Assembly (NCBI GenBank): GCA_018433595.1
Contig: JAHDQY010000023.1
Coordinates: forward strand, 1 to 52,015
DNA: 52,015 nucleotides
Reading direction: 5' to 3'
Source of the DNA: Synergistales bacterium
GTDB lineage: Bacteria > Synergistota > Synergistia > Synergistales > Aminithiophilaceae
The notes beneath the pieces are model-generated. The model ran no database searches, was not told the DNA's origin, and saw nothing but the letters and a program-made list of their open reading frames with translations. Below are positions 24,327 to 34,251 of this stretch, piece by piece. How positions within the stretch are numbered: the first letter of the stretch is position 1; every line of letters begins with the position of its first letter. A program made the position numbers and the translations under genes.

Positions 24327-25349
24327 TTACCGAGGAGACCGGTAGGAATTCCCTTCGCCTTCCTCCCCCTCCCTCCCCAAAAGCCGGGAAAGGCCCTTGA
24401 CGGCTTCATCGGCGGCGACGAGCAGGAGAGGCTCCTTGAGACGCCGCGACGGGAACTGATCCCAAAGGGCCGACACGGCCCCTGAGGGATCGCCCGTCGT
24501 TTCGATCTCGACGGCGGCGCCACCGGAAAGAGGGCGGAAGGAGGCCCGGCGAAGGGAGAGGGCGAAGGCCGATGCGGCCTCTTCCAATCGTTCGGCCAGA
24601 GATCTATCGAGAGGCCACCGGCGTTTAAGACGCCCGAGCGGTTTCCGCGGAAGATCGAGGAAAGCCTCCAGGCGCTCCTGGTCGATCCACATCCCCGGCG
24701 GGAGAAGCTTCGAGAGCAGGGCCCTGTCGCTTACAGGAAAGGGCAGATCGAGATAGTCCCGAAGGAGAGATCTCGCCGTCAGCTTGGGGAGGGCCGCGAT
24801 CTTCCCTCTCCCCCGGGCCAGCTTCTCCAGGGCTTCGATCCAGGGCGGCAGACGGTCGAAGACGAGAGAGGCCACGGCGCCGTCGGCTCCGTCGAGCCGG
24901 TCGACGGCCTGGCGGACGGCGACGAGACCGCTGCTGAAGGAACCGTCCAAAAGGGTCCAGCCGTCGTCACCGGCACACTCTCCGGCGGCGATAAGCTCCT
25001 CCATCGACAGGCGGGCTCGGACCAGGATCTCCCCCGAGGGGTCATGGGAGAAACGGAGCAGCTCCCCCTTGGCCCGGGGACGCCCCTCCGCCGGTGCTGC
25101 CGCCACAGCGAGGAGAACCACGACGTCACCGAAACGCCGACGTCGGGCCAGCCCGCCGTCGATCCCCCAGAGGGCCCTCTCTCCGGCACGCACCCCGTCG
25201 AAACAGCCTTGGGCACTCATCTCCCGACCCAGTTCGAGAAGGGGAAGCGTCAGAAGGTCCTCTTCCCTTTCGTCGGCATCGGCGAGGCGAGCCTGATCAG
25301 CCAGCAGGGCCGAGACGGCCTCGCCGTAGGGGCGGAATCCCTCTCTCAT
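24327..25349 (-). CDS. nurA: NurA 5'-3' nuclease
   Basis: 340 residues of the NurA family. The first catalytic Asp is in RALWGIDGGLARRRRFGDVV and a second conserved acidic block is GWTLLDGSFSSGLVAVRQAV. NurA is a 5'-3' single-strand-specific nuclease that works in a complex with the HerA hexamer to resect DNA ends. The ATG overlaps the herA stop by 4 nt, and it is the last gene of the resection operon. The C-terminal tail is acidic and low in complexity. No terminator is visible after it. Confidence 0.85.
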   Translation of the reverse strand: MREGFRPYGEAVSALLADQARLADADEREEDLLTLPLLELGREMSAQGCFDGVRAGERALWGIDGGLARRRRFGDVVVLLAVAAAPAEGRPRAKGELLRFSHDPSGEILVRARLSMEELIAAGECAGDDGWTLLDGSFSSGLVAVRQAVDRLDGADGAVASLVFDRLPPWIEALEKLARGRGKIAALPKLTARSLLRDYLDLPFPVSDRALLSKLLPPGMWIDQERLEAFLDLPRKPLGRLKRRWPLDRSLAERLEEAASAFALSLRRASFRPLSGGAAVEIETTGDPSGAVSALWDQFPSRRLKEPLLLVAADEAVKGLSRLLGREGEEGEGNSYRSPR

Positions 25350-27229
25350 GGCCTCTCTCCCAGGTCGTTGGCTTCGAGGAAGAGCGCCACCGAAGAGAAA
25401 GCCGAGAGGAAAAGAGGCTGTCCTGAAAAGGCCAGAGGGGAGAGGGGCCCCAGCAGCATGAAATTGAAGCTGCGATAGCCGTCGGAAGGGGCGCTCTGCG
25501 GGTCGGGGAAGCGCTGGTAGATGGAAAGAGCCTCTCCGTCACCGCCGGCAAGGTCGCGAAGGCTTGCGAGCTCGCTTCCTCCAGTGAGGCCGAAGCCGAC
25601 GAAGAGAGCCCGGAGCTGGCCGACGACTTCAGGATGGAGGCTGGCCAGGGTCTGGCTCACGAAAAGCCAGCCCAGACCGTATTTACGGGTCTCCCGGCTG
25701 GCCGAGACGAGGAGATCCCGCACCCGCCCCTTCTGCCCCTCCAGAGTTCCCCGGGGGACAAAGCGGTGGGCCTCGTCGAGGACGACAAGGGTGTTGAGGC
25801 GCTCTCCCTCGAGATAGGCCTCTTCCCCTCGGCGCCGGAGCGCCTCGAGGAGGCGCCAGACGACGAGGCCCTGGATCTCTTCATCCCAGATCATGTCGGC
25901 CCCTCCGGCGGCGATGGAGACGCCGCGGTCGAGCCCCTCCCGGGAGAGGTTGACAACGACGATCCGATCCCCCCGAGAGGACTCCTCGACGAGGCGGGAG
26001 ACCGAGACCGTCCCTTTGCGGCGATCATCGAAGAGAATCGTCATGGCCCGCCAGAGACGGCGGATCTGCTCCTTCTGAGAGGGGTCGCTCCAGTAGTCGC
26101 GGGCCTTGCGGAGGTGACGCTCCACGGAGTCGTCGGTCATGTAGACCCGCTTGACGAAGACCTCGTCGGAGACGATCTCGCCTACGGCCTCGAAGGCCGC
26201 GTCGCCGCTCAGCGCCGTCAGGTCGATATGGCGCTCCCGAAGCTCCCGGCTCAGCTGTTCGGCGGCGAGGTCGCGCTTTTCCCCCCGGGGGTAGCCGAGC
26301 CACTGGAAGACGAGGGCCTTGCCGACGACGTCCTCGAAAAGCTCCCAGCTGTCGAGGACGAGACTGCGCAGCGGAACGGCCTGGACCTTCTTTCCGAACC
26401 GCTCCTCGGCGACGCGGCCCCAGTCGAAGAGGAAGCCCTCCTGATCGGAGGGGCCTCCGAGGTCTCGGCTGAACTCCCCCTGAGGATCGAAGACGAAAAG
26501 GGACGTCCCCCGATGACGGGCGAAACCCGTGAGAACCATCTTGGCCAGAACGGACTTGCCCGACCCGGTTCGGCCGAAGATGCCCATGTGGTAGGTGTCG
26601 CCGGCGCCTCCCGGACCCTTTCGGAAATGGCGGATCCAGGTCGGCAGGAGGAGATCGCGCCCCCTGGGGCCGTAAGCCGTCCCGAGGTAGAAAAGGTCGG
26701 GGCTGTTTTTCCGGAGCAGCCCTCGAAGGAAGTCGTCGCTGACGATAAAAGCGGGACTCCCCGAGGGGGGAACCGTTCCCAGAAGAGAGGGGACGGCGGT
26801 CTCTTCGGCCCCCCGCAGGGCGAAGACGGCGCTCAGGACCAGATCGGCCCGATAGAGATCCTCCGAAGCCGAGGGAGGCAGGCTGCCGACGGAGCTGATG
26901 ACCGATCGGGCCGTGGCGCCGGAGAAGAGTTCGTTCTCCATGGCGACGCGGCGCACCTGTCCTACGGCGAAGGTGCACTCCCCGTCCTGGCGGAAGGGGA
27001 TGACGACCCAACGGCCCAGGAGGGCACGGGATCTCGCTCCGGCCAGAAGATCGACGGCAAGGGCATCCGTCGAGCTCGGGGCGGCGACGATTCCGAAGAG
27101 CAAGGCCTCTCCGTCGAAGGGAAGATCCCTTTCCGGAGGCTTTCCGGCGGCAGGAGTTCCTTCGACGCCGGGCATGGGAGTCTCTTCGTCGACGTCGCTC
27201 CAGCTGAGAGGGTCAAAGGTTTCGGTCAT
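25346..27229 (-). CDS. herA: HerA hexameric DNA translocase
   Basis: 627 residues of the FtsK-HerA superfamily. An N-terminal HAS-barrel-like region (about 40-140) precedes the ATPase. Walker A is GRTGSGKS at 219-226, followed by LFVFDPQGEF; Walker B with the catalytic Glu is NTLVVLDEAHRFVP near residue 480; sensor-like segment SRETRKYGLGWLFVSQT follows. It should pump DNA into the NurA nuclease during end resection. The ATG at 27229 overlaps the rad50 stop by 4 nt (ATGA); the open frame to 27274 is an artefact. Confidence 0.93.
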   Translation of the reverse strand: MTETFDPLSWSDVDEETPMPGVEGTPAAGKPPERDLPFDGEALLFGIVAAPSSTDALAVDLLAGARSRALLGRWVVIPFRQDGECTFAVGQVRRVAMENELFSGATARSVISSVGSLPPSASEDLYRADLVLSAVFALRGAEETAVPSLLGTVPPSGSPAFIVSDDFLRGLLRKNSPDLFYLGTAYGPRGRDLLLPTWIRHFRKGPGGAGDTYHMGIFGRTGSGKSVLAKMVLTGFARHRGTSLFVFDPQGEFSRDLGGPSDQEGFLFDWGRVAEERFGKKVQAVPLRSLVLDSWELFEDVVGKALVFQWLGYPRGEKRDLAAEQLSRELRERHIDLTALSGDAAFEAVGEIVSDEVFVKRVYMTDDSVERHLRKARDYWSDPSQKEQIRRLWRAMTILFDDRRKGTVSVSRLVEESSRGDRIVVVNLSREGLDRGVSIAAGGADMIWDEEIQGLVVWRLLEALRRRGEEAYLEGERLNTLVVLDEAHRFVPRGTLEGQKGRVRDLLVSASRETRKYGLGWLFVSQTLASLHPEVVGQLRALFVGFGLTGGSELASLRDLAGGDGEALSIYQRFPDPQSAPSDGYRSFNFMLLGPLSPLAFSGQPLFLSAFSSVALFLEANDLGERP

Positions 27230-29913
27230 GGTCGTTCCTCCTCTACGGAGAGGCGCCCCTCTTCCAGACGCCATTGCCTGGGAAAAGAGGCGGCCACGTC
27301 GGGGTCATGTGTGATCACGGCGACGAAGGCCTCCCGCCCCAACGTTCCCAGAAGGTCGATGACGCGGTCCAGATGACGGTCGTCAAGCATGGCCAATCCC
27401 TCGTCGATGAAGAGCACCTCCTGGAAACCGACGTGGGAGGCGAGGCGCCGAAGCATGAGAAGGGCAATGAAGGAGCGTTCCCCGCCGGAGAGGCTGGAGG
27501 CGGGACGGACTCCTTCGGCCTCGACGACTTCGATGATTCCTCCGCGGGCGCGAAGGTGCCAGCCCTTGTCAGGGAGAGCCCCGTTGACGGACTGAAGAAG
27601 CCTCTCCATCAGGTAGTCGCCGACGAAGCGGGGGAAGCTTCTTCCGTCGGTGAGGCGGAAGAGGCGCCGGGCGCCATCGGCGGCCGGAAGAAGTTCCCGC
27701 GATCGGCCTTCGGCCTCCCGGAACCGCCTTTCCAGCCCCTTCCGCTCGGAATGCATCTCCTCCAGACGGGCCCTGAGAGCCCAGGCTTCTTTCATCTTCT
27801 CTTCGGCCTCGTCGAGACGATCGGCCAGATCCTGCAGCGGAGGGGGATCGGAAGGCAGGGCGGCACGATAGGAATCGACAGCCCGTCGGGCGTTTTCGTC
27901 CGCCCTTCGCGATCCTTCCTCGCGTGCCAGGGCCGCCTCGAACGCTCCCGCCGGAAGCGTCCCCTCCCCGAGAGAGAGGGCCTCCCGGAGTTCCTCGACA
28001 TTCCAGCGGTGGTGCCGGGAGGCCTCTCGCCACTCACGGCGCGCTTCAGCCAGTCCCGAGAGCGCCTCTTCAAGGCGTTCCCGGGCCGAAACCCTCTCCG
28101 CCTCAAGGCGCGTCGCCTCCATCTTCAGCCGCTCCGCTTCATCGCGCATCGCCTCGCCGCGGCGGCGGAGATCCTCGCGAAGGAGGAGAAGCTCTTCCCG
28201 ACGACGGCGGGCCGCGAAGAAGCGCTCCAGCTCCTTGTCGTCGGGGAAGCCCAGAGCCTCGTCACGGGCCTGTCTTCGCCGGGTGACGGCCTCCAGCTGG
28301 CGCTGACGCTCCTGAAGCGTTCCTCCCAAGGTGTCGAGGGCCTTCACCGTCTGTTCACGCTCTCTTTCGAACGCCGCCGGGTCGAAGGCCTCCGAAAGGG
28401 GCTCCGCCTCGTCAGGAAGGTCGCTGGGCAGGGAGACCAGCTCCTTCCGAATCCGATACCCCTCCCGAAGGAGGTCGAGACAGCGCTGACGACTTCGGGC
28501 CTGCCCTTCAAGACGATCCTGAAGGCCGGCCTCCCTCAGGGAGGCGGCGAACTTCAGGGCGCGGGCCCCCCGAAACCGCTCCGGTCTCACCAGCCCGTCA
28601 TCATCGGCCAGAAGATGCAGCCAGGCCAGAAGGGCCTCGGAGAGACCGGAGACAAGGGAGGCGAGGCGATGAGCCTCCTCGCGATGGCGGTTCAGAACCC
28701 GATCCCGTCTCTCTTGCAGCTCCTTCCGCCGCAGGAAGGCCCATCGCCGCTCTAGGCGGTCGAGGCCGGACCGGAGAGCTTCGAGCTCCCTTCTCCCCTC
28801 GTCGAGGGAACGACGCAGCCGCTCCTCCTCCGCTCTCGCCTCAGCCAGGGCTTTTCCTTCCTCGGCCAGGCGGGCCGGCTCCTCTACGGCGGCAAGAAGG
28901 GCTTCCATCTCCCTCCACTCCCTGCGCAGCGACCGCAGGAGAGCCTCTTTGGCCGCCAGCTTTTCGATTCGGGCTTCACCTTCCCTGCAAAGAGCCGCGA
29001 CACGGCGATGACGCTCTCCGACGTTTCGGGCCCGCTCCAGAAGGCGGCGGAGCCCCTCGGTGGCCTCGCCGAGTCGGGCGAGGCGCCGGACCTCGGCAAG
29101 ACGGGAACGGGACGCCTTCAGGTCAAGGCCCGCCGCCGAGGCAGCCGACTCGAGGCGGTCAAGCTCCTTTCTGGAGTCGAAGGCCCGGCGAAGGCCCCGG
29201 ACCTCCCTTTCGGAAAGGGCGATCGCCGATGCGGCCTCCTGGAGACGGCAGGAGAGCTCCTCTTCAACCGGAAGGAGGGAGAGACGTTCGTCGAGAGCCT
29301 TTTTCTCCCCTTCCAGACGCTCTTCCTCGGCCTGTGCGAGATCAAGAACGGCCCGGGCCCTCTCCCGAAGACGCTCCTCGTCGTCAAGACCGAGAACGGA
29401 GGAGAGGACGGACCAGCGCTCCGACGGCGTGGAGTCGATGAGGCGGGTCACCATCCCCTGGGGGACGAAGACGGAGGCGAGAAAGGAATCCTTGAGACGG
29501 GCCAGGCGATCCCCCCTGGCCGGGAAGGGACGCGGTGCGAGAAGATCGGCAAGCAGCCCGGCCGCTTCCTGGACCGTCGAGGCCAAGGGCTCCCAGGAAG
29601 CGCCGTCGAAGCGCTCCAGCAGGACTTCCTGAGAACGATTCCTTCGGAACTTCCGCGTCACCCGGAAAATCCCCTTCGAAACGGAAAAGGAGAGGACGAC
29701 CTCGCCCCATTCGGCCCCGAGACGCACCAGCCCCGATTGCTTGACGACCCGGACCGGCGAAGGCTCCCCGAAAAGAGCGACGACGAGAGCATCGAGGAGA
29801 GAGCTCTTCCCCGAACCGTTGGGGCCGACGATGGCGACGACTCCCGGATCGAAGACGATTTCGGCGCTCTCCAGTCCGAGCAGGTTCGTGACGGACAGGG
29901 AGTGAAGCTTCAC
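27226..29913 (-). CDS. sbcC: Rad50/SbcC-type SMC-like ATPase
   Basis: 895 residues. Walker A is GPNGSGKSSLL at 30-40; the ABC signature SSLSGGERSF is near 806-815 and Walker B EVLFIDEGLAMLDD near 832. Between them lie two long coiled-coil arms rich in Glu, Arg and Leu. SbcC/Rad50 proteins usually carry a CxxC zinc hook at the arm tip; here the only central cysteines are isolated (LSCRL, ALCREG, QRCLDL), so no hook is seen. With SbcD it recognises and processes DNA ends. ATG overlaps sbcD by 4 nt and the stop overlaps herA by 4 nt. Confidence 0.93.
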   Translation of the reverse strand: MKLHSLSVTNLLGLESAEIVFDPGVVAIVGPNGSGKSSLLDALVVALFGEPSPVRVVKQSGLVRLGAEWGEVVLSFSVSKGIFRVTRKFRRNRSQEVLLERFDGASWEPLASTVQEAAGLLADLLAPRPFPARGDRLARLKDSFLASVFVPQGMVTRLIDSTPSERWSVLSSVLGLDDEERLRERARAVLDLAQAEEERLEGEKKALDERLSLLPVEEELSCRLQEAASAIALSEREVRGLRRAFDSRKELDRLESAASAAGLDLKASRSRLAEVRRLARLGEATEGLRRLLERARNVGERHRRVAALCREGEARIEKLAAKEALLRSLRREWREMEALLAAVEEPARLAEEGKALAEARAEEERLRRSLDEGRRELEALRSGLDRLERRWAFLRRKELQERRDRVLNRHREEAHRLASLVSGLSEALLAWLHLLADDDGLVRPERFRGARALKFAASLREAGLQDRLEGQARSRQRCLDLLREGYRIRKELVSLPSDLPDEAEPLSEAFDPAAFEREREQTVKALDTLGGTLQERQRQLEAVTRRRQARDEALGFPDDKELERFFAARRRREELLLLREDLRRRGEAMRDEAERLKMEATRLEAERVSARERLEEALSGLAEARREWREASRHHRWNVEELREALSLGEGTLPAGAFEAALAREEGSRRADENARRAVDSYRAALPSDPPPLQDLADRLDEAEEKMKEAWALRARLEEMHSERKGLERRFREAEGRSRELLPAADGARRLFRLTDGRSFPRFVGDYLMERLLQSVNGALPDKGWHLRARGGIIEVVEAEGVRPASSLSGGERSFIALLMLRRLASHVGFQEVLFIDEGLAMLDDRHLDRVIDLLGTLGREAFVAVITHDPDVAASFPRQWRLEEGRLSVEEERP

Positions 29914-31025
29914 TGAGGAGCCTCCCCATCCCCGTCTCTCAGGAGAAGGCTCCAGACCTCCTCGGGATCACGTCCCTGAAGAAGAGCCGACCCGGCCTGG
30001 ATCAGCAGCTCCCGGCGAGGGCCCTCGCCCTCTTCCCGTTCGACGAAGCGACGCCAGAGTTCCTCGACGACCAGAGGCTCAGCCCCCTCGTCGATCGCCT
30101 CTTCCGTCTCGCCGAAGGAGCCGAGCCGAAGCTGAACGATCCGCTCTCCCCCTCGCAGGTCCCGGAAACGCTCCAACAGGACGGCGCGTGAAAGAGAGGC
30201 CTCTTTCAGAAAGACGCGGATCCAGCAGGCCTCGTGGCGGGTCAGATCCTCTTCGAGAACCTCCAGGGCGGTCTTTTCGCTGTCGTAGTCCAGAGTCTTC
30301 AGTTCCCGGGCCTGAAGGGGCAGGGACTGGACGACGCCGTCGGCTCCCCAGAGCAGCCCCACGTCGACGCCCTCCTGGGAGAAGTCGACGCGATAGGGAG
30401 AGCCGACATAGAAGGCGGGAGGATCGGTCAGAACCTGGCCGTGACGGTGGATGTGGCCGCAGAAGACGGCGTCGAAGGCCCCCTTTTTCAGCAGGGAAAG
30501 AGGAAGAGTCGCCTCCTTCAGCCCCGGTACGGTCCCCTCCAGAGCCAGATGGGCCAGGAGAAAGCGCCATCGCACCTCCTGCGAACCGCTCTCCCGCAGA
30601 GGCTCCAGAAGCGTCTCCAGGCCGCCGGGAGGGATCTGATGGGGACGAAGGTAGGGCAGGCAGAGGAAGTCGGCGTCGCCGAACGAGAGAAGCGAGGGGC
30701 GGTCGACGACGTGGAGACGCCCCTCGCCGCTCAGGATCTCCCAGACCTTGACGCCCGACCAGTCGTGATTGCCCTTGAGCAGGACGACATGAGGCTCTCC
30801 CGGAAGATCGAGAAGCCGGCGCAACGTCGAGGCGACGAGATGGACGGGACCGTCGCCGGGATAGCGGAAGCGGTCGAAGAGGTCGCCCAGGAGAAGGATG
30901 ACATCAGGCCGGCGGCGCGAGGCCTGATTGACGACTTCCGCCAGCGCTGATGCCACCTCGTCGGACCTGTCGACGCCCCAGGTCGTGGCGCCGACGTGCC
31001 AGTCTCCGCTGAGAAGGAACCGCAC
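29910..31025 (-). CDS. sbcD: Mre11/SbcD nuclease
   Basis: 371 residues. All phosphoesterase motifs are present: SGDWHVG (Asp8, His10), LLLGDLFDR (Asp48), LLKGNHDWS (Asn86, His87), LLAHLALEG and FCGHIHRHG. It is the Mn-dependent nuclease partner of Rad50/SbcC in double-strand break processing. A C-terminal region of about 100 residues would form the Rad50-binding cap. It begins 9 nt after the HD-hydrolase gene and is joined to sbcC by an ATGA overlap, so Mre11, Rad50, HerA and NurA are made from one message. Confidence 0.94.
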   Translation of the reverse strand: MRFLLSGDWHVGATTWGVDRSDEVASALAEVVNQASRRRPDVILLLGDLFDRFRYPGDGPVHLVASTLRRLLDLPGEPHVVLLKGNHDWSGVKVWEILSGEGRLHVVDRPSLLSFGDADFLCLPYLRPHQIPPGGLETLLEPLRESGSQEVRWRFLLAHLALEGTVPGLKEATLPLSLLKKGAFDAVFCGHIHRHGQVLTDPPAFYVGSPYRVDFSQEGVDVGLLWGADGVVQSLPLQARELKTLDYDSEKTALEVLEEDLTRHEACWIRVFLKEASLSRAVLLERFRDLRGGERIVQLRLGSFGETEEAIDEGAEPLVVEELWRRFVEREEGEGPRRELLIQAGSALLQGRDPEEVWSLLLRDGDGEAPQ

Positions 31026-31034
31026 CGACGCCCC

Positions 31035-31610
31035 TCAGTCGTCTTCGCCGAGGCCGATCTCTTTTTCGACGGGCCGGAGAGCGGCGATGGTCTCTTCGAC
31101 GATCCAATCCAGCGGCTTGCCGAGCATCTCCGCTCCGCGGGCGACGACATCCCGATCGACGCCGCGGGCGAAGGCCTTGTCCTTCCATTTCTTCTTAACC
31201 GACTTGAGCCCCAGATCCTGGAGCGACTTGCCGGGCCGAACAAGGGCGACGGCGGTGATGAAGCCGGTCATCTCGTCGACGGTGAAGAGAACTTTTTCCA
31301 GGTCCGTCTCAGGCTGGACGCCGCTCATCTCGGCCGCGTGGGAGCGCACGGCCCTGCAGAGCCATCCGGGAGCGCCTTCGGCTTCGAGGATGGAAGCCCC
31401 GACGGAGCCGTGAGAGGCCGGTGCGGACTCGGTCTGCTCCCAATCGAGATCGTGGAGGAGACCGGCCAGCGCCCAATCGTCACCGTCGCCTCCATAGAGA
31501 GCGGCGAAGTGGCGCATGGCCGCCTCGACGGCAAGTCCGTGACGGATGTGGCCGTCATCGGCATTGTGACGGGCCAGAAGTTCGAGGGCCCTTTCCCGCG
31601 TCATGGTCAT
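31035..31610 (-). CDS. HD-domain phosphohydrolase
   Basis: 191 residues. The metal ligands of the HD superfamily are visible: His in IRHGLAVEAAMRHF, HD in AGLLHDLDWEQTE, His in ASHGSVGASIL and His in AVRSHAAEMSG. Members cleave phosphate from nucleotides or act as phosphodiesterases; the substrate is not predictable. AAGGAGG precedes the ATG. It lies 24 nt after the dCMP deaminase gene and 9 nt before sbcD, so it may be a nucleotide-pool enzyme expressed with the resection genes. Confidence 0.88.
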   Translation of the reverse strand: MTMTRERALELLARHNADDGHIRHGLAVEAAMRHFAALYGGDGDDWALAGLLHDLDWEQTESAPASHGSVGASILEAEGAPGWLCRAVRSHAAEMSGVQPETDLEKVLFTVDEMTGFITAVALVRPGKSLQDLGLKSVKKKWKDKAFARGVDRDVVARGAEMLGKPLDWIVEETIAALRPVEKEIGLGEDD

Positions 31611-31634
31611 GAAAAAACCTCCTTAAAAGACAGA

Positions 31635-32123
31635 TCAGGGCGTGGTACCGCAGAATTCCCTGTCGAAAAGAACCGTCGGCGGAAGCTGAAGAACGGCGAT
31701 ACCCGACTCCTCCCTGAGCCGACGAGCCAGTTCGTCGGGATAGGGATGGATGAAGACGATGCGCTCGATGGCGGCGTTGATGATGGCCTTGGTGCAGAAG
31801 ACACAGGGTTCATGAGTGCAATAGAGAGTCCCTCCCGCCGTCGGGGAGCCGACGGCGGCGGCCTGGGCGATGGCATTGATCTCGGCGTGGGAGCCGCGGC
31901 AGATTTCGTGGCGCTCCCCCGAAGGGATGCCCATTTTCTCCCGGAGGCAGCCCACCTCGTCGCAGTGAGGCGTGCCCCGAGGGGCTCCGTTATAACCGGT
32001 GCTCAGGATCTGTCGGTCCCGGACGATGACGGCACCGACACGGCGGCGCAGGCAGGTGCTCCTCGTCGCCACGACAGCGGCGATAGTCAAGAAGTAGCTG
32101 TCCCAATCAGGCCTGGAGGCCAT
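31635..32123 (-). CDS. Deoxycytidylate deaminase (ComEB-like)
   Basis: 162 residues of the cytidine/deoxycytidylate deaminase family. The catalytic zinc motif is SHAEINAIAQAA with PCVFC; an extra zinc-binding set (PHCDEVGC and the following ERHEICRG) is typical of dCMP deaminases. It converts dCMP to dUMP for thymidylate synthesis. GGAG lies before the ATG at 32123. It heads the operon that continues with the HD hydrolase and SbcD-SbcC-HerA-NurA. No clear promoter was found upstream of it. Confidence 0.92.
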   Translation of the reverse strand: MASRPDWDSYFLTIAAVVATRSTCLRRRVGAVIVRDRQILSTGYNGAPRGTPHCDEVGCLREKMGIPSGERHEICRGSHAEINAIAQAAAVGSPTAGGTLYCTHEPCVFCTKAIINAAIERIVFIHPYPDELARRLREESGIAVLQLPPTVLFDREFCGTTP

Positions 32124-32154: not shown

Positions 32155-32214
32155 GGTTGAACAACTGTTGTGATAGGCGCAAGCCCTTACCCATCGAAAG
32201 GAGTTGAAAGGGAC

Positions 32215-32769
32215 GTGTCGGAAAGAGCCCCCTGGGCAGGGGAGGGATTGACGGTTGAAGCGTTCTACCGACGATGCCCTGCCCGCTTTCTCGAAAGCTA
32301 CCGCGCCATGGAGGAACTTTTTCGCAATGCACCCGGCCTCATGGCCAGCCTCCCCCGCCTGGAGGAAGGGACGGTCCTTCACTGCTTCTGCAAGACCGCC
32401 TGTCCCGACTGCCAGATCATGATCCCTCTCCTCGATCTGATCTGCCGCCAGGGCTCCATCTCCCTGCGGATTCACAGCCACAAGAAATGGGCTCAAACGC
32501 TGGAAATCCTTGCAGAAGACCCGACAGCCCTGACGCTGCCGACGCTGCTGGCCACCGACGAAGAAGGCAAGCCCCTCCGCTGCCTCTTCGGAAGGCCCGG
32601 GGGGCTCGACGTGGTGACCTGGCGGACGGGAAAGGGCTGGGAAGACCTCTTCGCCTTTTTCGGGTCATCCCCTCTCAGGGACTCATCAGGGGAGGGAAGG
32701 GGAGTTCCGGAGCCGGCCCGACGATCCGGCGCGTCTCATCGAATTCGAAATCAAAAAGCGTCTGAATGA
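32215..32769 (+). CDS. Thioredoxin-fold protein with CPDC motif
   Basis: 184 residues. After a helical N-terminus, VLHCFCKTACPDCQIMIPLL carries a CPDC redox motif, followed by the cis-Pro region ALTLPTLLATDEEG, giving a thioredoxin fold. No signal peptide, so it acts in the cytoplasm, possibly as a thiol-disulfide oxidoreductase. The start is a GTG with AGGAG 11 nt upstream; the ATG at 32170 lacks a ribosome site. The last 95 bp overlap the end of the convergent unknown gene, so its C-terminal tail past residue 150 is of doubtful function. Confidence 0.75.
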   Translation: MSERAPWAGEGLTVEAFYRRCPARFLESYRAMEELFRNAPGLMASLPRLEEGTVLHCFCKTACPDCQIMIPLLDLICRQGSISLRIHSHKKWAQTLEILAEDPTALTLPTLLATDEEGKPLRCLFGRPGGLDVVTWRTGKGWEDLFAFFGSSPLRDSSGEGRGVPEPARRSGASHRIRNQKASE

Positions 32770-33328
32770 TGCGCAGGTCCGTCACATCGTCGGTATCGTA
32801 GGCGATGCCGAAACGGCGATAGCCGAAACGCTCGGCGAAAAAGGCGGTGTCGGACATCCCCTCGCAAGCCTTGTGGAGAATCTCACCGAAGAGGGAAAAG
32901 AAGGACTCCTCGTCGAAGAGCGGATTTTCGCTGGCCAGGGCGATCACCTTGCTCTCGTCGACAAGGATGGACCGGTCCCAAAAGCCGCAGAGAGTGAGCC
33001 CCGCCTTGAGCCCCCGAGAGGCCTGGGCCACGAGATGAGCCAAGGCCTCCATCGTCTTCGAGTAGCCGAAGACCATCAAAAAACCCAGGTCGATCCCCGC
33101 CCGCCCCGGATCAAGGAGGCCGCCCCGCATCAGCGGCCCCACCTGACCGCTTTTGAAGCTTCGCAGGCAGAGGAATTCGCTGTCGAGCTGAAAGGCATCG
33201 GCGGCGATGCGGTGAAGCGCCTCGCTATGAAGGGCGTTGACGGAGACGGGAAAGAAATCGAGCCCGTAGGGCGCCCAGAGGTCCATGTCGAGATCGACGT
33301 GACGATCCCAGTAGGGAAGGAGCGTCAC
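32675..33328 (-). CDS. Protein of unknown function coupled to CheV
   Basis: 217 residues, not recognised. No signal peptide, membrane helix or obvious catalytic motif. Conserved-looking blocks are LMRGGLLDPGRAGIDLGFLM, ALAHLVAQASRG and RFGIAYDTDDVTDLRIIQTL. The GTG start shares bases with the cheV stop (GTGA), so it is translated together with CheV; a downstream ATG (MDLWAPYG) is the alternative start. The longer open frame to 33604 is the shadow of cheV. The tight coupling hints at a chemotaxis or signalling role, which is inference only. Confidence 0.75.
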   Translation of the reverse strand: MTLLPYWDRHVDLDMDLWAPYGLDFFPVSVNALHSEALHRIAADAFQLDSEFLCLRSFKSGQVGPLMRGGLLDPGRAGIDLGFLMVFGYSKTMEALAHLVAQASRGLKAGLTLCGFWDRSILVDESKVIALASENPLFDEESFFSLFGEILHKACEGMSDTAFFAERFGYRRFGIAYDTDDVTDLRIIQTLFDFEFDETRRIVGPAPELPFPPLMSP

Positions 33329-34251
33329 CGCTTGCCGGCAGCCTTGGCTTCGGCCAGAAGGAGACAGACCTCGTCGACGAGGGAACCGATCTCGGGCTTG
33401 GTGATCTGAAAATCGGCGCCGACGCTGGCGGCCTTGCGCCGGATGTCCTCGGCCATGATCGACGAGTAGACGATGATCTTCATGGTGGCGAAACGGTCGT
33501 CTTCGCGGAGGCGTCGCGTCAGGGTGAGACCGTCCATCTTGGGCATTTCGATGTCGGTGATGAGCAGGTCGAAACGCTCGTCGGGATCGACGAGGCGATC
33601 CCATGCGGCTTTGCCGTGGCTGACGAGTTCGACGTTATGGAACCCTCCCACGCCGAGGGCATCCTGGATGAGCTTCCGAATCAGGGGGGAATCCTCGGCG
33701 ACAAGAATCTTATAGTCGTTGGGATCGCCCAGATCGGGAGGCAGAACGCTGCGACGATTCCGTTTCGGATCGAGGTGATAGGCCTCGGCGATTTTGGGGT
33801 TGACGACCTGTACGATGCGCTCGTAATCGAGGAGCAGGATGTTCCGCCCCTCCCGTTTGATGACGTAGAGAGCGTCATCGCCGAGGAAGCTCCCCGAGAG
33901 GGTCGAATCCAGCTCCTCGGAGCTGATGCGGTAGATACGCTCGACTCCGTCGACGACGAAGCCGAGTTTCATCTTGTTGAACTCGGCGACGATGACCTTG
34001 TCCAGATCCCGCTCCCTTTCGGAATCGATTCCCAGGTAGGTCCTCAGATCGATGAGAGGGATCACCTCGCCGCGGACGGTGGTGATGCCCAGCATGGCAG
34101 GGTGACTCTGAGGCACGGGACGAACCCCCGTCCAGCGAAGGATTTCACGCGTTTTATCGACGTTGATGGCGAAGGCCTGTTCGCCCAGCAGGAAGACGAC
34201 GACCTGCCACTCGTTCGTCCCCACTTCGGTGAGAATTTTATCATCCTTCAT
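33325..34251 (-). CDS. cheV: CheV chemotaxis coupling protein
   Basis: 308 residues. A CheW domain (about 12-155) starts WQVVVFLLGEQAFAINVDKT and includes ITTVRGEVIPLIDLRTYLGI. A receiver domain (about 180-300) has VAEDSPLIRKLI, the phosphorylated Asp in LLITDIEMPKMDGLTLTRRL and the conserved Lys in FQITKPEIG. CheV links chemoreceptors to CheA and adapts through phosphorylation. No receptor, CheA or flagellar gene is in the window. It has a strong promoter of its own and is coupled to an unknown gene downstream. Confidence 0.94.
   Translation of the reverse strand: MKDDKILTEVGTNEWQVVVFLLGEQAFAINVDKTREILRWTGVRPVPQSHPAMLGITTVRGEVIPLIDLRTYLGIDSERERDLDKVIVAEFNKMKLGFVVDGVERIYRISSEELDSTLSGSFLGDDALYVIKREGRNILLLDYERIVQVVNPKIAEAYHLDPKRNRRSVLPPDLGDPNDYKILVAEDSPLIRKLIQDALGVGGFHNVELVSHGKAAWDRLVDPDERFDLLITDIEMPKMDGLTLTRRLREDDRFATMKIIVYSSIMAEDIRRKAASVGADFQITKPEIGSLVDEVCLLLAEAKAAGKR

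Follow-up and report, generated by a model that had tools for sequence, protein, structure and literature searches.

A Synergistales operon coupling SbcCD to HerA and a divergent NurA, with a possible role in DNA-end processing

The window analysed here is a whole contig of 52,015 nucleotides (nt), JAHDQY010000023.1 (C44), from the Synergistales bacterium assembly GCA_018433595.1, a genome of 2.53 Mb in 72 contigs that is 99.65% complete. It contains six head-to-tail genes on the minus strand, the last four of which encode the SbcCD (Mre11-Rad50) nuclease and the HerA-NurA translocase-nuclease. The first gene of the unit encodes a ComEB-like dCMP deaminase (31635..32123; 162 amino acids, aa) and is followed after 24 nt by the gene for an HD-domain protein (31035..31610; 191 aa) and, after a further 9 nt, by sbcD (mre11; 29910..31025; 371 aa, GTG start). 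The genes sbcC (rad50; 27226..29913; 895 aa, GTG start), herA (25346..27229; 627 aa) and a divergent nurA (24327..25349; 340 aa) come next, each overlapping the preceding gene by 4 nt. A sequence-only reading of this DNA had described these six genes, with the HD and deaminase genes ahead of the other four at gaps of 9 and 24 nt, as well as ATGA overlaps at 29910, 27226 and 25346, and our measurements agree, in the case of 27226 after correction of the herA start. The longest open reading frame (ORF) for herA opens at 27274 and would overlap sbcC by 49 nt; since its relatives (L031-L034) begin at the codon equivalent to Met16 at 27229, we moved the start there, which yields the ATGA overlap at 27226-27229.

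A contig scan, which returned only close relatives, gave Synergistota strain L-13 (CP074691) and a Synergistaceae metagenome-assembled genome (MAG) as the nearest named relatives of the window, and Synergistales MAG 54_24 as the representative of a second family. We take L-13 to be Thermosynergistes, an oil-field thermophile; a taxonomy look-up places that genus in Synergistota. We refer to the window genome's own family as f1 and to other Synergistales families as f2, f6 and f9. In the f1 and f2 relatives, sbcD and sbcC overlap by 4 nt in every case and herA and nurA by 4 or 14 nt, and since these overlaps recur in two families they are not a matter of chance. The four genes sbcD-sbcC-herA-nurA are thus contiguous and overlapping, as in the archaeal type of operon, and from this layout we infer a single transcript for them; a promoter and terminator scan around the operon returned nothing useful. 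That a bacterium holds the complete set, as the sequence-only reading proposed, is therefore borne out, with translational coupling and conservation in two Synergistales families.

Database searches assigned the first five products. The deaminase matches Pfam dCMP_cyt_deam_1 (3.6e-25) and, under the cut-off, ComEB (3.4e-33), and the HD protein matches Pfam HD (3e-6) and HDIG (1.1e-8) and keeps H24, H53-D54 and D112 in an alignment of its relatives. SbcD matches Metallophos (1.4e-16) and has the full set of invariant Mre11 motifs (D8-H10, D48-D51, N86-H87-D88, H159 and H191-H193), and SbcC matches AAA_23 (9.6e-17) and contains the Walker A GPNGSGKSS, signature LSGGE and Walker B LFIDEG motifs. 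The best PDB matches of the two proteins, 3qg5 (1.2e-20) for SbcD and 3qf7 (5e-23) for SbcC, are Thermotoga Mre11 and Thermotoga Rad50, respectively, and not archaeal proteins. The CxxC zinc hook was not found in the window SbcC or in its f1, f2 and f9 relatives (L030, L031, L033, L034 and L063), and it is present in the SbcC of L097 and L099. Contig C72 of the same genome also encodes another phosphoesterase, weakly SbcD-like, whose gene overlaps that for a 1152-aa ATPase (L065:3206-7941).

HerA matches DUF87 (PF01935) at 7.4e-14, i.e., 52.8 bits against a cut-off of 23.2, has intact Walker A (GRTGSGKS) and Walker B (VVLDEAH) motifs, and retrieves the DNA helicase 9x1l from PDB (3.7e-6), an entry named in a Foldseek listing as the HerA-NurA of T. 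kodakarensis. Its scores against the NCBIfam HerA equivalogs of the repair and antiphage types (26.6 bits against a cut-off of 970, and 26.3 against 800) are so far under those cut-offs that it must belong to a different HerA subfamily. In HerA trees, the Synergistales sequences form one group (support 100/100 in one tree and 92/100 in another) that clusters with copies from plasmids, viruses and scattered bacteria, separately from the HerA of two other bacteria with linked sbcDC described below (G282 and G285). The HerA-NurA of the window thus resembles a bacterial and mobile subfamily, as judged from trees that held no archaeal chromosomal HerA. A search of the phage genome collection turned up no HerA of the window kind.

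The last gene was harder to assign, as the 340-aa protein has no match in Pfam, NCBIfam or PADLOC, and neither it nor its Synergistales relatives reach the Pfam NurA (PF09376) cut-off. Homologues in L074, L075, L135 and L136 do pass that cut-off. When six relatives were combined into a profile, the top PDB match was PfuNurA (E 0.011, with the register correct), and SsoNurA joined it under a wider profile. The profile also detects, on five plasmids, a gene that adjoins herA or lies close to it, and two of these genes encode a product above the Pfam cut-off. In addition, hhalign matched nine members of the subfamily to seven classical NurA sequences over residues 53-322 (Prob 95, E 3.8e-8). A first AlphaFold model built from six close sequences was useless, with a predicted local distance difference test (pLDDT) score of 44. 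With a nine-row alignment including four distant homologues as input, AlphaFold (AF2) produced a model with a pLDDT of 83.9 and a predicted template modelling (pTM) score of 0.82, for which each of the top 10 PDB matches in Foldseek is a NurA chain (E 2.8e-10 to 1e-8, the next fold following at 1.6e-3), so that the model shows the RNase H-like fold of NurA. These lines of evidence support the guess, made earlier from sequence, that the gene encodes NurA, and point to a divergent subfamily. The acidic RNase H core (DG, E, DGS, D; D64, E118, D135 and D208) is invariant in f1 and f2. In contrast, the C-terminal Tyr-Pro...His pair of classical NurA is absent: where the classical rows have Y and H, the window protein has Glu306 and Asp314, and Glu and Asp occupy these positions in nearly all of the subfamily. 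In G331 (L129:984-2120), most of the catalytic residues are gone. A "NurA" match in G064 was set aside because the protein, encoded next to a V-ATPase-like gene, is not NurA; a separate hit, in G028, was rejected as weak, with stops in its frame.

Within a Synergistales set of 183 genomes (SYNERGISTALES), the NurA subfamily is found in six (4/4 of f1 and 2/2 of f2), each of which also carries herA, and no NurA of the window kind was found in the other Synergistales genomes of this set, the seventh match being the false one in G064. HerA of the window kind occurs in the same six genomes and in one f6 genome (G017). The f2 operon reads HD-sbcD-sbcC-herA-nurA, without the deaminase. In f9, HD-sbcD-sbcC is followed by a NarL regulator, with neither herA-nurA nor a deaminase there, and in G017 the genes are divided between two contigs, one with deaminase-HD-sbcD-sbcC and the other with a terminal herA beside an ornithine cyclodeaminase-like gene. 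From these arrangements the HD gene, an sbcD neighbour in f1, f2, f6 and f9, would be an older companion of sbcDC, as the deaminase probably is too, and herA-nurA would have been added downstream of sbcC in a pre-existing HD-sbcD-sbcC operon of the f1 and f2 families, with some doubt left by the contig breaks in G017. As the HD and deaminase genes flank sbcDC in relatives without adjoining herA-nurA, they are not specific partners of the set, and the earlier proposal of linked nucleotide-pool enzymes is not supported. The GC content of herA and nurA, overall and at third codon positions (GC3), matches that of the neighbouring genes; the pair is therefore not a fresh insertion, and its acquisition is probably old.

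Linkage of SbcCD with HerA-NurA had been taken by the sequence-only reading as the archaeal arrangement, with bacterial SbcCD normally standing without HerA-NurA. To see the linkage as archaeal only is wrong, given a report on Oceanithermus profundus, where sbcD and sbcC lie downstream of herA (PMC5448004), and the gene runs that we found in bacteria of other families. Of 392 genomes sampled broadly, about 60 of them Synergistales, 16 carry Pfam NurA. Two of these 16, from unrelated bacterial families, hold nurA, herA, sbcD and sbcC in one contiguous run (G265, and G282, where a gene for 191 aa separates nurA from herA), and a looser example (G285) has the four genes within 10 kb, with an opposite-strand reading frame between herA and sbcD. 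These three genomes and Oceanithermus share the bacterial SbcCD/HerA-NurA linkage with the window and differ from it in having herA upstream of sbcD-sbcC; the three also have a NurA that passes Pfam and a HerA of another subfamily. The window operon is therefore less exceptional than was first held, being a variant of a known linkage, and because HerA subfamily and gene order both differ, at least two separate bacterial assemblies of SbcCD with HerA-NurA are likely. A loose version of the set, with a NurA-like protein, HerA and an SbcC-like SMC ATPase in about 11 kb, was seen on Corynebacterium and Rhodococcus plasmids (L077:6393-17801 and L078:6241-17879).

Comparison with described systems places the operon more precisely. 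Like the archaeal mre11-rad50-herA-nurA cluster (PMC2288612, PMC5448004, PMC12977600), it brings the same four activities together in one gene run. It differs in lying in a bacterium, in its order (sbcD-sbcC-herA-nurA), in its bacterial/mobile HerA-NurA subfamily, in the Glu and Asp that replace the Tyr and His of NurA, in its hookless SbcC, and in the additional presence of AddB. The gene order and the HerA-NurA subfamily give an archaeal origin no support, as far as trees without archaeal chromosomal HerA can show. The NurA-HerA of Deinococcus and Thermus likewise combines a bacterial HerA translocase with a NurA nuclease (PMC9960219, PMC5448004), the Thermus pair differing from ours in having no linkage to sbcDC; that phylum is described as lacking RecBCD/AddAB (PMC9960219, PMC5448004), and in recent papers HerA-NurA is still said to be restricted to a small number of bacteria (PMC9960219, PMC12977600).

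Most bacterial HerA-NurA pairs of the window subfamily stand without sbcDC, and relatives lie on plasmids and in cassettes of bacteria and viral contigs in which a DruA gene directly precedes nurA-herA. We found this DruA-NurA-HerA order in two bacterial genomes (G358, L131:2999-7048; G325, L109:394-3569) and in three IMG/VR contigs (L135:2358-6423, L136:1-3943 and L137:3358-7725). Their HerA and NurA belong to the same subfamily as those of the window, whereas DruA takes the place of SbcCD and nurA precedes herA. The L135 cassette adjoins phage DUF669 and RusA genes, which leaves a role in phage recombination as open as one in defence. No paper pairing DruA with NurA was found in searches of library literature, and the cassette, a candidate mobile system, is apparently undescribed; we consider it the most novel by-product of this work. 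A further locus (G333, L111:5355-9470) has the order NurA-HerA-DruA with a different HerA and with DruA split in two frames. Another NurA-HerA pair of the window subfamily, in G223 (L130:7317-18035), has genes for a DNA methylase and a ResIII-type helicase as neighbours and resembles a restriction-modification locus.

We see about an even chance that the SbcCD and HerA-NurA operon serves DNA-end processing in repair. The nuclease and the translocase-nuclease would be made together from one coupled operon; SbcCD would open or clear DNA ends, e.g., blocked or hairpin ends, and a HerA hexamer would then pump duplex into a NurA dimer, which would cut it. The result would be processive end processing or degradation alongside AddAB, in the handling of chromosomal breaks or stalled forks. 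We infer the complex, the order of action and this role from the genes and their linkage. In favour are the gene overlaps retained in two families, the joint occurrence of herA and nurA in all six f1 and f2 genomes, the intact catalytic motifs, the support for the NurA fold and the GC match of herA and nurA to the adjoining genes. For the related complexes of archaea and Deinococcus, too, a HerA ring feeding duplex to NurA has been put forward (PMC9960219, PMC12977600), and in Sulfolobus acidocaldarius Mre11 shows interaction with Rad50 as well as with HerA (PMC2288612). Furthermore, that the SbcCD/HerA-NurA linkage recurs in other bacterial families, in Oceanithermus (PMC5448004) and among hyperthermophilic archaea suggests a pathway in common. 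Several observations weigh against this reading: the zinc hook missing from SbcC, the G017 herA that does not adjoin sbcDC, the DruA genes next to homologues of the window HerA-NurA, the T. kodakarensis HerA-NurA, which degrades both strands and whose authors argue against resection (PMC12977600), and the fact that end resection is probably already covered, given AddB. The last point comes from a search with a Synergistales AddB protein, which detected AddB in all genomes of f1 and f2 (E 3e-79 to 4e-135), where a distant AddB family model had seemed to miss it. Judged by AddB, HerA-NurA therefore did not replace AddAB as the end-resection enzyme of these two families, an idea thereby refuted and to which we give next to no credence.

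A different function, which we consider possible but doubtful, is that HerA-NurA is an anti-invader nuclease against phages or plasmids that derives from a mobile defence-type cassette, with SbcCD making or exposing ends on foreign DNA that HerA-NurA then destroys. The DruA-NurA-HerA cassettes, the plasmid copies and the copy flanked by methylase and ResIII genes fit this view, as do the T. kodakarensis enzyme, which degrades both strands and for which an antiviral role is proposed, and the antiphage systems in which bacterial HerA is paired with a Sir2 or DUF4297 nuclease (PMC12977600). However, neither DruA (at E 1e-4 in the window) nor any other known defence gene was found beside the operon, the PADLOC matches in the window being distant ATPase and deaminase matches only; the conservation is stable, the context housekeeping and the GC content native; and the neighbours of the L135 copy suggest that the cassette may serve phage recombination instead. 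The separate sites of sbcDC and herA in G017, together with the many pairs of the subfamily that lack sbcDC, would suit a third view, in which the four genes are merely co-transcribed, SbcCD and HerA-NurA act independently and a chance insertion was kept by drift. Against this stand the overlaps kept in two families and the linkage of SbcCD to different HerA subfamilies in different gene orders, which suggests selection, and we find it improbable. In a broader history, which we consider possible though less likely than not, a NurA-HerA subfamily whose active site is altered (Glu/Asp for Tyr/His), moving on plasmids and in DruA-NurA-HerA cassettes of bacteria and phages, would have been captured by a Synergistales SbcCD operon. 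Bacterial operons with the four genes would then have been assembled independently more than once, and the acquired pair would act both in end repair and in destroying foreign DNA.

Whether HerA-NurA acts in end resection for recombination or in destroying foreign DNA is disputed (PMC12977600), and an operon joining SbcCD to a HerA-NurA of mobile type, in bacterial cells that have AddB as well, offers a natural test case. If true, repeated independent assembly would speak for a genuine partnership of the four proteins.

The surroundings of the operon are partly conserved as well. A NarL-type regulator gene begins 79 nt past nurA. Upstream, a thioredoxin-like gene (32170-32769, plus strand) diverges from the operon and is kept in f1 relatives, making a divergent promoter common to both possible. 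A CheV-like gene followed by the gene for a protein of about 216 aa with no Pfam match (32675-34251, minus strand) lies upstream of the sbcDC cluster in f1, f2, f6 and f9.

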